Of a stretch of 64,000 nucleotides of DNA, positions 26,414 to 30,567 are shown piece by piece. The DNA is taken from NCBI GenBank assembly GCA_026417415.1, contig JAOADG010000008.1, positions 1 to 64,000 of the forward strand, given 5' to 3'. The notes below the pieces were generated by a model, which saw only the letters and a program-made list of their open reading frames with translations, searched no databases and had not been told where the DNA came from. The DNA comes from a bacterium. GTDB taxonomy: Bacteria > Electryoneota > JAOADG01. The translations under genes and the position numbers were made by a program. The first letter of the stretch is position 1; the number at the start of each line of letters is the position of its first letter.

Positions 26414-26503
26414 TGCAACTTTTTTAAAATTGTGACAACCAATTGAATAAGAAATAGGCAATGTACTTATAACTATAGAAAATATCTAAACTAATATAAA
26501 ACT

Positions 26504-26532
26504 TGACAAATCGTATCCAAATTTAGTATATT
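26504..26532 (+). promoter_or_regulatory. Sigma-70-type promoter of the ECF sigma gene
   Basis: TTGACA (26504-26509), a spacer of 17, then TATATT (26527-26532) forms a near-consensus housekeeping promoter in the gap before the sigma gene at 26589. The match to TTGACA is exact, which is striking if the host is a Bacteroidota relative. The leader would be about 50 bases and ends in AGAAGGGAG. Confidence 0.75.
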
Positions 26533-26588
26533 GGTACAAAGAAACAAAAACAGATACCTAAGCGTATTAAAACCAGAAGGGAGTTAAA

Positions 26589-27266
26589 ATGAAAAAATCT
26601 ACATTAACCAATCAAGAAATTCATGTTGTACCTATTGAGAGTGAAGCGAGTAAAAAACCGATCGCATCTGCAAAAAAATGGAGTGAAATGAAGGAAGCAG
26701 ATGATAAAGAATTAATTGCTTTAGCGATTAAAAATGACCCTCTGGCATTTCATACCTTGGTTGAAAGATATCGCACACGTGTTGCTTCTATAGCATATCA
26801 AGTCATTGGAAACTACGAAGATGCAAGAGATGTTTCACAAGAAGTGTTTGTGAAACTGTTTAGAAGTTTAGACACTTTTGATGCAGAAAAGAAATTCTTT
26901 ACATGGCTTTATCGCATGACAGTCAACGCAAGCATTGATTTTTTGAGATCAAGAAAAAAGAGAAATCTCGAAAATAGCATTGAAGAGCAACCGGAATACT
27001 ATCAAGACAATATTGCTCATCCAGATGGCGATGGATTTGATCAATTTGAAAACACGGAATTGAATGCAATCTTTCACGAAATTGCCAAAAGTTTAAACCC
27101 AAATCAACGAACTGCGTTTATCTTATGTGATTTACAAGGGTTTAGCCCTGCTGAAGCAGCGACCATTATGAAATGTCCGAAGGTTACATTGAGATGGTAT
27201 TTACACGAAGCAAGAAAAAGAGTGCGTGCCGAAATGTTAAAACGCTATCCGGAATACGCAAGATAA
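26589..27266 (+). CDS. ECF-type RNA polymerase sigma factor (RpoE-like)
   Basis: 225 aa. After an extra N-terminal tail of about 38 residues come region 2 (ELIALAIKNDPLAFHTLVERY ... GNYEDARDVSQEVFVKLFRSL ... FFTWLYRMTVNASIDFLRS) and, after an acidic linker, region 4 (LNPNQRTAFILCDLQGFSPAEAATIM ... VTLRWYLHEARKRVRAEM). It directs RNA polymerase to its own promoter set, most likely an envelope-stress set given the genes behind it. GAAGGGAG precedes the ATG. It has its own promoter and terminator, while the putative anti-sigma gene lies beyond the terminator. Confidence 0.93.
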   Translation: MKKSTLTNQEIHVVPIESEASKKPIASAKKWSEMKEADDKELIALAIKNDPLAFHTLVERYRTRVASIAYQVIGNYEDARDVSQEVFVKLFRSLDTFDAEKKFFTWLYRMTVNASIDFLRSRKKRNLENSIEEQPEYYQDNIAHPDGDGFDQFENTELNAIFHEIAKSLNPNQRTAFILCDLQGFSPAEAATIMKCPKVTLRWYLHEARKRVRAEMLKRYPEYAR

Positions 27267-27288
27267 TTTAATTTCTTCTTCAAAAAAG

Positions 27289-27320
27289 AACGGGGTATAT
27301 TTGTACCCCGTTTCTTTTTT
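27289..27320 (+). terminator. Terminator between sigma and anti-sigma genes
   Basis: A 9-bp stem (AACGGGGTA / TACCCCGTT, loop TATTTG) is followed by TTCTTTTTT. It lies 22 bases after the sigma stop and 65 bases before the anti-sigma start, so the downstream genes may be transcribed less than sigma or by read-through. Confidence 0.85.
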
Positions 27321-27376
27321 GTTCTTTCGGAAAGTTGCTTCGTATCACATCAAGAGAATTTAATAAGGAAAGATAT

Positions 27377-27826
27377 GTGAATTGTGAAGAAGCAAGAACT
27401 CTGATTAAAAAACTAAACTGCATCAACCTTACCAGAAAACAAACTCAATTCCTTCAACAGCATTTAGACAGTTGTGTGGAATGTAGAAAATTCCAAATGC
27501 ATCAGCATGTTCTAAAATCAAAAACTGTTTTTGATGATGAAGCGTATTGGGGAGAATTTTATAAAAAAATTGCTGAGGAAATTCATAAGAAAGAGACCTT
27601 TCAAGAAAGAATGAAACGAAAGCTTCTGATACATATGCCTTGTCCATTTACAGCATTTGGAATTGATAAAATGGTAAAACTTGGTGTACTTATTTTACTA
27701 ATAATTTCAATATCCGCATTATTACAATCCGGTATGAGACAATCCCAAAACACTTCACAAACAGTAGATTTTACAACCGTTCAGGACACATCAGGATTAA
27801 AAATTTACCAGCTGAAAGCCCCGTGA
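27377..27826 (+). CDS. Putative zinc-finger (ZAS/zf-HC2) anti-sigma factor, single-pass membrane
   Basis: 149 aa from a GTG at 27377 with AAGGAA six bases upstream; an earlier TTG at 27335 has no ribosome site. Cys3 and the His-x3-Cys-x2-Cys motif (HLDSCVEC, residues 29-36) match the zinc-binding anti-sigma domain that grips ECF sigma factors. A single membrane helix (LGVLILLIISISALL, about 100-115) leaves a short outer tail of about 30 residues. It probably holds the sigma factor at the membrane. The start of the next gene overlaps its stop (TGATG). Confidence 0.85.
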   Translation: MNCEEARTLIKKLNCINLTRKQTQFLQQHLDSCVECRKFQMHQHVLKSKTVFDDEAYWGEFYKKIAEEIHKKETFQERMKRKLLIHMPCPFTAFGIDKMVKLGVLILLIISISALLQSGMRQSQNTSQTVDFTTVQDTSGLKIYQLKAP

Positions 27827-28848
27827 TGAAACGGTCAATTCAGAAATTATTCTACCTCCCTTGGTTGTTCACTTTTCTTTTGTTCATCAGTGCTTGTAAA
27901 AGAGACACCAATGTTTTGCAACAATTTGATCAAGAACTTCGTGTATTAACACAATCCTTATCTTCTTCTGTAGCAGAACTATTGGCTGTTCCTGATAGTG
28001 GTGAAATTGAAAAAGTGATCGGTTCTGCATTAATCATTTCAAAAGATGGTTTAATGATTTCCACAGCTTCTATTCTAAAAGAAGGCAAACCTATGGTGGC
28101 AAAACTAAACTATTTGCCATACATTCCTGTAACTTTGATTGGAACGGACTGGGAAACCAATGTTGCTTTGTTAAAACTGGATACTACCTTACAGTTTCAA
28201 TCTGTTCCATTAATTGGTAAAAACGATATTGAAGTTGGGCAATTGGGTTTCTTAGTGGGTTCTACACCGTTCTTAAAAGAAACCATTACCATGTTCGGAA
28301 TGTTAACACACTCTATAATAGGCGGTGAAGATGCTTATGATGTACCGATGTATGCACTTTCCACGTTCAGTGTACTGGCAAGACCCGGTGCGCCTGTTTT
28401 TGATGCCGATGCACAAATTATTGGAATTGTAGATGGGAAATTGCACACCGCACAAATGGGAATGTGGACCGTGATCCCACTAAAAACTATACGCAACGTG
28501 TTGCCTATGTTGGAAAAAGAAAGTGGTGTACAGCGCGGATATTTAGGAATCATACCTGCGGATCATTCAATCAAAAACAAAAACTCAGAAGGAGTAGTCG
28601 TCAAAGCGGTACTCCCCAATACGCCAGCTTATCATGTCGGTTTGAAAGATGGAGACAACATCCTTGAAATAGACGGTATCCGTATTAAAAAGGTAAGCGT
28701 TTTAAGAAAACAGATTACCAAAAACCCAAACAAAAAAGTTACTCTAACGATTGAAAGAAATCAGAAAAATCATACCGTTGAAGTTTTTTTACAAAGCCGC
28801 ATCATTTCTTCAGAAGAAGAAAATCGCAATCCATTTCGTAAGTTGTAA
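27826..28848 (+). CDS. Catalytically dead HtrA/DegP-like lipoprotein with PDZ domain
   Basis: 340 aa. The lipobox FISAC puts a lipid on Cys24. Residues about 62-230 follow the trypsin-like HtrA fold (GSALIISKDGLMIST, GTDWETNVALLKL, VGSTPF, AQIIGIVDG) and 235-322 form a PDZ domain (GYLGI, VLPNTPAYHVGLKDGDNILEIDG). The triad is gone: the His of TNxHV is Ser82, the Asp of tDIAvl is Asn112, and the GNSGGP loop reads ARPGAP (Pro187 for Ser). It is therefore predicted to sense or bind peptides, not cut them. Coupling to the anti-sigma gene by TGATG suggests a part in controlling the sigma factor; that is inference. Confidence 0.85.
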   Translation: MKRSIQKLFYLPWLFTFLLFISACKRDTNVLQQFDQELRVLTQSLSSSVAELLAVPDSGEIEKVIGSALIISKDGLMISTASILKEGKPMVAKLNYLPYIPVTLIGTDWETNVALLKLDTTLQFQSVPLIGKNDIEVGQLGFLVGSTPFLKETITMFGMLTHSIIGGEDAYDVPMYALSTFSVLARPGAPVFDADAQIIGIVDGKLHTAQMGMWTVIPLKTIRNVLPMLEKESGVQRGYLGIIPADHSIKNKNSEGVVVKAVLPNTPAYHVGLKDGDNILEIDGIRIKKVSVLRKQITKNPNKKVTLTIERNQKNHTVEVFLQSRIISSEEENRNPFRKL

Positions 28849-28880
28849 CCTTATCTATTTATACAATAGGTAGAAAGAAA

Positions 28881-30374
28881 ATGCAAGAAAATCCGAACAT
28901 TAAATTTCGTATTGATCCAAAACCACAAACTGCCAGCGCAGGAAATAGCGAAGAAGAGCATAAAGAAAAGAGACACACTTTTCTTACGAACTTCTCCGTT
29001 ACTCCATTGGAGTTAGAAGCATATTTGAATCAATATGTTATTGGTCAAGAGCAAGCGGTTTCTATTTTAGCCACGAAAATTGCTACTCATTACAACCGCA
29101 TGAAAATGGAAATGCTGCATCCAGATTTAAAACCAATAGTAGGAAATATCAAACCGAATATCATTTTAATTGGACCTACCGGTGTTGGTAAAACCTATAT
29201 TATAAAACTCATTGCCGATTACATTAATGTTCCTTTCGTTAAAGGAGATGCAACCAAGTTTAGTGAAACAGGATATGTGGGTGGCGATGTAGAAGATTTG
29301 GTTCGTGATTTGGTGTACCAAGCAGGTGGCGATATTCATGCAGCAGAAAGAGGAATTATCTACATTGATGAAATTGATAAAATTGCTTCTGCACAAAATG
29401 TAATTGGATTAGATGTATCAAGATCAGGAGTGCAAAGAAATCTGTTAAAGATTATGGAAGAAACCGAAGTTGATATGAAAGTTCCTCACGATATTGCATC
29501 GCAAATGGAAGCCGTGATGGAGATCCAAAGAACAGGAAAAGCAGAAAGGAAAAAAGTCAATACCAGAAACATATTATTTGTTGTAAGCGGTGCTTTTTCT
29601 GGATTAGAGGATATTGTGAGAAAACGTGTAAGAGGAAGTAGCATTGGTTTTGGTGCGCTAACGGAGGAACAGATTCAATTAGAACAAAACTGGCAAAATT
29701 TAATATCTGCACAAGATTTAATTAAATATGGATTTGAAACCGAATTTGTCGGTAGATTACCAGTCCACGTTAAACTAAGACCATTGAACGAAGAGGATTT
29801 TTACAAAATTTTACGATCGCCTACGAGTGCGGTTATTCTTGGAAAAAAAAGGGACTTCCTTGCATACAACATCCAATTGAGTTTTACGGATGGTGCACTC
29901 AGAAAAATTGCACAACTTGCTGTAAAAGAAGGAACCGGTGCAAGAGGAATTTTATCTGTGGTAGAGAAAATTCTTTTACCATTTGAAAAACACCTTCCTC
30001 ATCGTGTTTCAGAGTTCACAGTTACACAGCAAGTTGTAGAAAATCCAGAAACAGAGTTGAAAAATATGTTGGCGCAATTGGATATCAATGATTATACCAG
30101 AAAAATCATGTTAGATCATTCCATCTTTTTCAAACTACCTCCCGAATCTGTTGAGCGTTTAATTGAAGTTGCAAATATGCAAAATCAAACAGTAAAACAG
30201 TGGTTAGAAACCAATTTGAAGAATTATCCATATGGTCTTAGATTATTAGGTGTATCAGAGTTCGTGATAACACCGGATATCATTGAAAATCCACAAGATT
30301 ATCTTGATAAAAAGATCAAAGAGAGTTATGCAAGACAAAATAGAAATAGGGATATGAATCATGAAAACAATTAA
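28881..30374 (+). CDS. ClpX-like AAA+ unfoldase lacking the zinc-binding domain
   Basis: 497 aa. AAA+ motifs: GPTGVGKT (Walker A, near 100), YIDEIDKI (Walker B), GYVGGDVEDLV (pore-1 loop), SSIGFGA (the IGF loop that docks ClpP), the segment LIKYGFETEFVGRLPV, and sensor-2 GTGARG. This is the ClpX pattern, but the N-terminal Cys4 zinc domain is replaced by about 40 polar residues (HKEKRHTF) and there is a C-terminal extension of about 90 residues. ClpX feeds unfolded proteins to ClpP; no clpP is in the window. GAAAG lies before the ATG. It is 32 bases after the dead HtrA gene. A second, regular clpX elsewhere is likely. Confidence 0.85.
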   Translation: MQENPNIKFRIDPKPQTASAGNSEEEHKEKRHTFLTNFSVTPLELEAYLNQYVIGQEQAVSILATKIATHYNRMKMEMLHPDLKPIVGNIKPNIILIGPTGVGKTYIIKLIADYINVPFVKGDATKFSETGYVGGDVEDLVRDLVYQAGGDIHAAERGIIYIDEIDKIASAQNVIGLDVSRSGVQRNLLKIMEETEVDMKVPHDIASQMEAVMEIQRTGKAERKKVNTRNILFVVSGAFSGLEDIVRKRVRGSSIGFGALTEEQIQLEQNWQNLISAQDLIKYGFETEFVGRLPVHVKLRPLNEEDFYKILRSPTSAVILGKKRDFLAYNIQLSFTDGALRKIAQLAVKEGTGARGILSVVEKILLPFEKHLPHRVSEFTVTQQVVENPETELKNMLAQLDINDYTRKIMLDHSIFFKLPPESVERLIEVANMQNQTVKQWLETNLKNYPYGLRLLGVSEFVITPDIIENPQDYLDKKIKESYARQNRNRDMNHENN

Positions 30375-30567
30375 ATTAGAAGTACGTGGGATGACCTGTG
30401 CGCATTGTGAGGAATCTGTAATCAAAGCACTTAAAAAAATAAATGGCATTACCGAAATTGAAGTGAACCGATTTGAAAATTATGCACAATTTCGTTTAGA
30501 TGAAACGAAAGCAAATCAAGAACAAGTAAAACAGGCAATTGAAGCGATTGGATTCCAAGTTGTATGA
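30361..30567 (+). CDS. Heavy-metal-associated (HMA) domain protein, CopZ-like
   Basis: 68 aa, one complete HMA domain. The GMTCAHC motif near residue 10 supplies the two metal-binding Cys, and the ferredoxin-like fold ends in GFQVV. Such proteins carry Cu(I) or other soft metals in the cytoplasm. It overlaps the end of the ClpX-like gene by 14 bases and the tyrS start by four (ATGA), so it is embedded in the unit. No metal ATPase is nearby. Confidence 0.92.
   Translation: MKTIKLEVRGMTCAHCEESVIKALKKINGITEIEVNRFENYAQFRLDETKANQEQVKQAIEAIGFQVV

Follow-up and report, generated by a model that had tools for sequence, protein, structure and literature searches.

Can a relative of the HtrA proteases that has lost its cutting site serve as a fixed part of a sigma-factor switch? 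We addressed this question at a locus in the 2.2 Mb genome of a bacterium of the Electryoneota (assembly GCA_026417415.1), within a 64,000-nucleotide stretch of contig JAOADG010000008.1, here called the window. Positions 26503-30374 hold four genes on the same strand, encoding an extracytoplasmic function (ECF) sigma factor, a transmembrane (TM) anti-sigma factor, a lipoprotein of the HtrA family and a ClpX-like AAA+ protein. The preliminary description had listed these co-oriented genes, and all four were present in the sequence and in Pfam scans; it had read them as one stress relay, in which a PDZ protein that cannot cut could sense misfolded outer-membrane proteins by binding, with the ClpX-like protein pulling the anti-sigma apart. 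Our comparison of gene sequences across genomes showed that the first three, namely the ECF sigma factor, a TM anti-sigma with a predicted cytoplasmic sigma-binding part and a predicted lipid-anchored HtrA/PDZ pseudoprotease, remain linked in at least three phyla.

The fold of the HtrA protein was assessed with an AlphaFold2 model (predicted local distance difference test score, pLDDT, 78). Its best match in the PDB by Foldseek was 6ew9, DegS with an outer-membrane protein peptide (TM-score up to 0.73). The model and the Pfam matches to Trypsin_2 and PDZ showed a chymotrypsin-like domain followed by a PDZ domain, as in the HtrA/DegS S1C fold, in agreement with the earlier claim that fold and PDZ are retained. 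The DegS equivalog TIGR02038 (cut-off 423 bits) was not reached by the window protein (75 bits) or by its relatives (107-143 bits). Pfam and NCBIfam scans of the window protein returned only PDZ, trypsin, HtrA-type or other PDZ families, and not the RseB sequence family.

In an alignment with active HtrAs of the same phylum, which retain the His-Asp-Ser triad, the catalytic positions of the window protein were occupied by Ser82, Asn112 and Pro187, the same positions that had been named before. Homologues with an intact triad had been set beforehand as a test, and the alignment gave none among the dead HtrAs (0/20). The same proteins retained an invariant lipobox Cys, the motif D-x-x-T-[ND] and the PDZ peptide-binding loop R-[GS]-x-x-G-[IVL]. 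Local decay of the HtrA gene was considered and rejected, since the triad is missing from every relative at this place and the dead HtrAs group in a single clade.

The distribution of the trio was determined in a sample of 39 Electryoneota genomes, in which the window's own class is represented by two (G000, the window's genome, and G001). An initial database search with the HtrA query gave no match, and the sigma query gave 34 loci. Sigma orthologues were found in 15 of the 39 genomes, all in families f1, f2 and f3, with 54-83% identity in the 14 besides the window's genome. In seven of these 15, the sigma gene is followed by an anti-sigma gene and a dead HtrA gene, adjacent and co-oriented. 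We built a profile from the seven HtrAs and searched 386 genomes with it; the seven scored 430-505 bits, a protein of another phylum (G039) scored 306 bits, and other HtrAs scored at most 191 bits. The gene order in G039 is sigma, one inserted cation-efflux gene, anti-sigma and dead HtrA. The trio was also present in a genome of a third phylum (G194), and a second profile, searched over 133 genomes of that phylum, recovered 12 dead-HtrA members in five families (242-385 bits; next HtrA, 202 bits), and in 12/12 the dead HtrA gene directly follows consecutive sigma and anti-sigma genes.

These searches gave the trio in 20 genomes: seven Electryoneota of three families, the one genome of another phylum and the 12 of the third. 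In the DNA examined at the more distant sigma loci (L117-L139, among the 34), no HtrA of the dead family was found. Because the first three genes are conserved in 19 other genomes, a chance arrangement is excluded, and the proposal that a non-cutting HtrA/PDZ protein is a fixed partner of the sigma/anti-sigma pair was borne out. In all 20 genomes it occupies an RseB/MucB-type gene position beside a TM anti-sigma. When the 20 dead HtrAs were placed in a tree with 29 active ones, they formed one clade with a support of 100/100; the finer branching is unsure because the root was not fixed and the G194 row is very long. A contig-start fragment of a dead HtrA in G309 (L213), a genome outside G491's phylum, is nearly identical to the HtrA of G491 and may reflect transfer or bin contamination; it was left out of the count of 20.

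For the anti-sigma gene, an upstream sequence resembling a ribosome-binding site (AAGGAAAG) and the M-x-C opening of most relatives indicate the GTG start given in Table 1. The zinc motif reads HLDSCVEC in the window, and the AlphaFold2 model places short N-terminal helices at residues 3-12, 20-32 and 34-48, followed by a long helix, a TM helix and a disordered tail. The assignment as a zinc-finger anti-sigma was upheld by the motif and the three-helix domain, which are those of class I zinc anti-sigmas, but not by Pfam zf-HC2, which stayed below its gathering cut-off (15.5 vs 22.2 bits); the anti-sigmas of G014 and G039 scored above it. Among the distinct anti-sigmas tested beside a dead HtrA, the TM segment and outer tail were present in 18/18 and the zinc motif in 17/18, the exception being G001. 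The outer tails share a short strand-turn-strand-like pattern (DTSGLKIYQL in the window, NNLVVYEGELLSAVDDGGVTIYTV in the third phylum). Their final residues vary and the internal motif is conserved, and the anti-sigma C-terminus was rejected as a PDZ ligand.

In G015 (L115 5753-6070), the HtrA gene is gone and what is left of the anti-sigma is soluble, 106 aa long and devoid of both the TM segment and the outer tail; the gap lies downstream of the anti-sigma and before purN/purH-like genes, the place that HtrA occupies in G011 and G013. As judged from its genes, G015 is a natural double loss of the dead HtrA and the anti-sigma TM segment with its outer tail. Wherever else the flanks of sigma could be read and no HtrA gene lay beside it, an anti-sigma was missing from that place as well. 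The co-occurrence of HtrA and the anti-sigma TM segment is exact, but it comes from related genomes and carries no formal probability. The G015 gap is occupied by a small heavy-metal-associated (HMA)-like protein, and the window has a similar one after its ClpX-like gene (30361-30567).

This pattern bears on whether the dead HtrA is an output of the switch, that is, a sigma-controlled periplasmic holdase chaperone travelling with its regulator. The cluster could be autoregulated, and HtrA proteins can be chaperones without cutting, as is established for DegP. However, HtrA is present precisely where the anti-sigma has its TM segment and outer tail, and G015 has lost them all jointly; its fixed place after the anti-sigma across phyla and its conserved non-enzymatic tail also speak against an output, so that we regard this explanation as quite unlikely. 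The dead HtrA, lipid-anchored beside sigma and its inhibitor, probably acts as a binding gatekeeper rather than as scissors, because the cutting site is lost in every relative found, in at least three phyla.

The window's genome has an RseP gene (C26, 270 bits); RseP exceeds the curated cut-off there and in 35/39 genomes of the phylum. The dead HtrA gene of six third-phylum genomes is directly followed by that of an active, TM-anchored HtrA, which suggests that the two act on the anti-sigma as a pair. With these two proteases, the protease-free relay of the preliminary description is not needed.

In E. coli, RseB shields RseA, DegS cuts RseA, RseP cuts the TM stump and ClpXP clears the rest (PMC7593790). 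The dead HtrA holds the gene position of RseB and is followed by an active HtrA in six genomes; a gatekeeper at site 1 is the most economical reading. We consider it about an even chance that 26589-28848 encodes an envelope-stress switch in which the pseudoprotease gates site-1 cleavage of the anti-sigma in an RseB-like manner, with RseP acting downstream. With binding, sensing and direction of effect as we infer them, the anti-sigma would hold sigma at the membrane at rest, and the pseudoprotease would sit on its short outer tail and control whether an active HtrA of the DegS/DegP type, as the site-1 protease, can reach it, taking the part that RseB has for RseA. A misfolded envelope protein entering the PDZ groove would shift or release the pseudoprotease. 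The active HtrA would then cut the outer tail, RseP would cut the TM stump, ClpXP would clear the cytoplasmic remnant, and sigma would be freed. The net effect would preferably be protection, as with RseB, rather than help to the active protease.

The opposite direction is the main rival. Here the pseudoprotease would be a positive partner that joins or activates the active HtrA, either in a mixed trimer or with its [RK]-x-[ILVA] tail on the PDZ of the latter, and so promotes the first anti-sigma cut. The active HtrA next door in the six third-phylum genomes fits this, as does the tail itself, which was found at the end of 20/20 dead HtrAs and of 0/59 distinct active HtrA C-termini in the examined loci. 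The dead-HtrA C-termini are mostly RRCxxRSI or near it, and their hydrophobic end after the PDZ domain suggests a PDZ ligand, probably one for the protein's own PDZ or for that of a protease acting with it (HtrA or RseP). Two known systems also favour it: MamO, a dead HtrA homologue that makes no cuts of its own, promotes MamE proteolysis (PMC4794232), and C-terminal peptides, MucE among them, activate AlgW (PMC8545111). On the other hand, no active HtrA is adjacent in the window's genome or in the other Electryoneota trios read, and the tail is not aromatic, unlike the YxF ligands of DegS. The pLDDT of the tail is low (<50), and at that confidence no docking on its own PDZ was seen in the model. 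A positive role is judged unlikely, and the protective gatekeeper is preferred.

Several observations weigh against the gatekeeper as well. Six Electryoneota (L080, L095, L096, L097, L100 and L104) retain sigma with neither anti-sigma nor dead HtrA beside it, indicating that sigma can do without both. The G001 anti-sigma lacks the zinc motif, and the window's genome showed only a DegP-like active HtrA, far from the locus. To our knowledge, the RseB fold is also unrelated to that of HtrA.

Table 1. Features of the locus, with window coordinates.
Feature	Coordinates	Strand	Remarks
Sigma-70-like promoter TTGACA-N18-TATATT (putative)	26503..26532	+	11/12 consensus positions; best promoter-like match in the window; judged by consensus only
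ECF sigma factor gene, 225 aa	26589..27266	+	Pfam Sigma70_r2 and Sigma70_r4_2 above cut-off
Intrinsic terminator/attenuator (predicted) between sigma and anti-sigma	27288..27313	+	11-bp stem, 4-nt loop, T-run
TM anti-sigma gene, 149 aa	27377..27826	+	Likely start GTG 27377, listed open reading frame from TTG 27335; H-x3-C-x2-C aa 29-36, TM aa 99-117
Anti-sigma outer tail, aa 118-149 (32 aa)	27728..27823	+	Motif D-x-x-x-G-[LI]-x-[IV]-Y; similar pattern in relatives
HtrA pseudoprotease lipoprotein gene, 340 aa	27826..28848	+	Pfam Trypsin_2 and PDZ above cut-off; lipobox ISAC, Cys24
Ser82 codon, catalytic His position	28069..28071	+	His in 0/20 dead HtrAs; column S, E, N, T/G or V
Asn112 codon, catalytic Asp position	28159..28161	+	Asn in 19/20, mostly in motif D-x-E-T-N; Asp in G493 alone
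Pro187 codon, catalytic Ser position	28384..28386	+	Pro, Glu, Gly, Ala, Cys or Ser across 20 dead HtrAs
HtrA C-terminal tail ...FRKL-COOH	28825..28845	+	[RK]-x-[ILVA] at the very end in 20/20 dead HtrAs
ClpX-like AAA+ unfoldase gene, no zinc domain; neighbour, probably outside the module	28881..30374	+	Walker A/B, GYVG pore loop and ClpP loop IGF intact

The sigma protein contains sigma-70 regions 2 and 4 only, as in ECF factors. The claim that its gene has its own promoter and terminator agreed with the promoter match and the hairpin with T-run (Table 1), and a comparable hairpin lies at the same place after sigma in G001 (L093 1591-1616), so that a terminator is predicted in both genomes of the window's family. 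By analogy with mycobacterial sigE/rseA, sigma and anti-sigma, parted by this hairpin, may be produced in unequal amounts. The anti-sigma and HtrA genes share bases at TGATG (27824-27828), where the stop of the former overlaps the ATG of the latter.

We also analyzed the ClpX-like protein, which had been counted as the fourth member and as the puller of the anti-sigma. It has the AAA+ module with GYVG and IGF loops but falls below the ClpX equivalog models (TIGR00382, 286 vs 371 bits; NF003745, 317 vs 359 bits) and lacks the N-terminal zinc domain; both models match it only from about position 48-51 on. The window's genome encodes a separate canonical ClpX (L003). In 30 aligned relatives (L045-L074), Walker A/B, GYVG (one GYIG) and the ClpP-docking loop [IVML]GF were all kept, and the RKH region was replaced by a conserved family-specific stretch, PHDLASQMEAV.ETQRTGK. 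The proteins of this family are extended at the C-terminus by about 100 aa; most Electryoneota keep one as a second ClpX-type protein beside canonical ClpX, and as far as we have seen the family is undescribed.

Orthologues occur in nearly all 39 Electryoneota genomes, also where sigma, anti-sigma and HtrA are all missing. They stand beside a rhomboid protease gene in most f2 genomes, HflX in most f3 genomes and a RarA-like gene in several f5/f6 genomes; the rhomboid (by Pfam, L049) and HflX-type identities were checked in one case each, and RarA was assigned from a look at the sequence alone. The ClpX-like gene adjoins the trio solely in G000 and G001, where the downstream glutamate dehydrogenase-like gene is syntenic too, and it was next to 0/18 trios in the flanks read outside the window's family. 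The gene was therefore rejected as a module member on its distribution and varied neighbourhoods; of the proposed four-gene linkage, the sigma, anti-sigma and HtrA part stood and the ClpX-like part did not. In most f2 genomes (L049, L051, L054, L059, L061, L065 and L071), the rhomboid-type gene lies directly before the ClpX-like gene, which suggests an intramembrane protease/unfoldase pair.

These data also bear on the earlier relay, in which no cut occurs at all and the neighbouring unfoldase pulls the anti-sigma off sigma once the PDZ protein has sensed damage by binding. Its adjacency in both genomes of the window's family, its intact AAA+ motifs and ClpP loop, and the clearing of the RseA remnant by E. 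coli ClpXP (PMC7593790) would suit this role. We nevertheless consider it very improbable, given the different neighbours in other families, the orthologues in genomes without the trio, its absence next to the 18 other trios in the flanks read and the presence of RseP; moreover, a TM anti-sigma would first need release to reach a cytosolic unfoldase.

If the gatekeeper holds true, HtrA pseudoproteases would join the sigma-switch regulators known so far. HtrA is the scissors of the established envelope-stress pathway, whereas here only its grip appears to have been retained, in a constant partnership with sigma and anti-sigma in distant phyla. The broader proposal, for which we see the chances as evenly balanced, is that an HtrA pseudoprotease is a dedicated and ancient third part of one class of ECF sigma switches in several phyla, in which the PDZ would sense damage, proteolysis would be controlled without cutting and the RRCxxRSI-type tail would dock. 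This makes it testable whether PDZ binding by itself carries a stress signal, with the conserved C-terminal tail as a direct handle. Full-text literature searches, with most subscription papers outside their scope, found no description of an inactive HtrA in a sigma/anti-sigma system, and for three genes the arrangement thus appeared undescribed, as had been supposed.

Among known systems, E. coli rpoE-rseA-rseB with DegS, RseP and ClpXP likewise places a periplasmic regulator after sigma and a TM anti-sigma, and shares the location in the envelope and the presence of RseP. RseB binds the outer part of the anti-sigma, as the dead HtrA would do here; the regulator here, however, is a catalytically dead HtrA/PDZ lipoprotein, and the outer part of the anti-sigma has only about 30-70 aa. 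DegS and AlgW likewise have a single protease domain and a single PDZ, and DegS is the best structural match, but the HtrA described here lacks the triad, has a lipid anchor instead of a TM anchor and, with its relatives, scores 75-143 vs 423 bits on the DegS equivalog. MamO, a magnetosome pseudoprotease, shares the HtrA/trypsin-2 fold, the degenerate triad and a non-catalytic role, in its case aiding the proteolysis of an active paralogue (PMC4794232); it differs in acting in magnetite formation, binding metal and having no sigma/anti-sigma link. In Mycobacterium, sigE and rseA-htrA-tatB likewise place sigma, a zinc-motif anti-sigma and an HtrA gene in a row, and the separate transcription of sigE and rseA (PMC10027907) recalls the terminator predicted between the two genes here. 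For the mycobacterial HtrA, an essential and active serine protease is described (PMC10027907), whereas the one here is dead, a lipoprotein and equipped with a conserved tail. The sigma/anti-sigma/HtrA arrangement with an active HtrA was thus already known from Mycobacterium, and what appears new is an HtrA pseudoprotease as the partner of the sigma switch.

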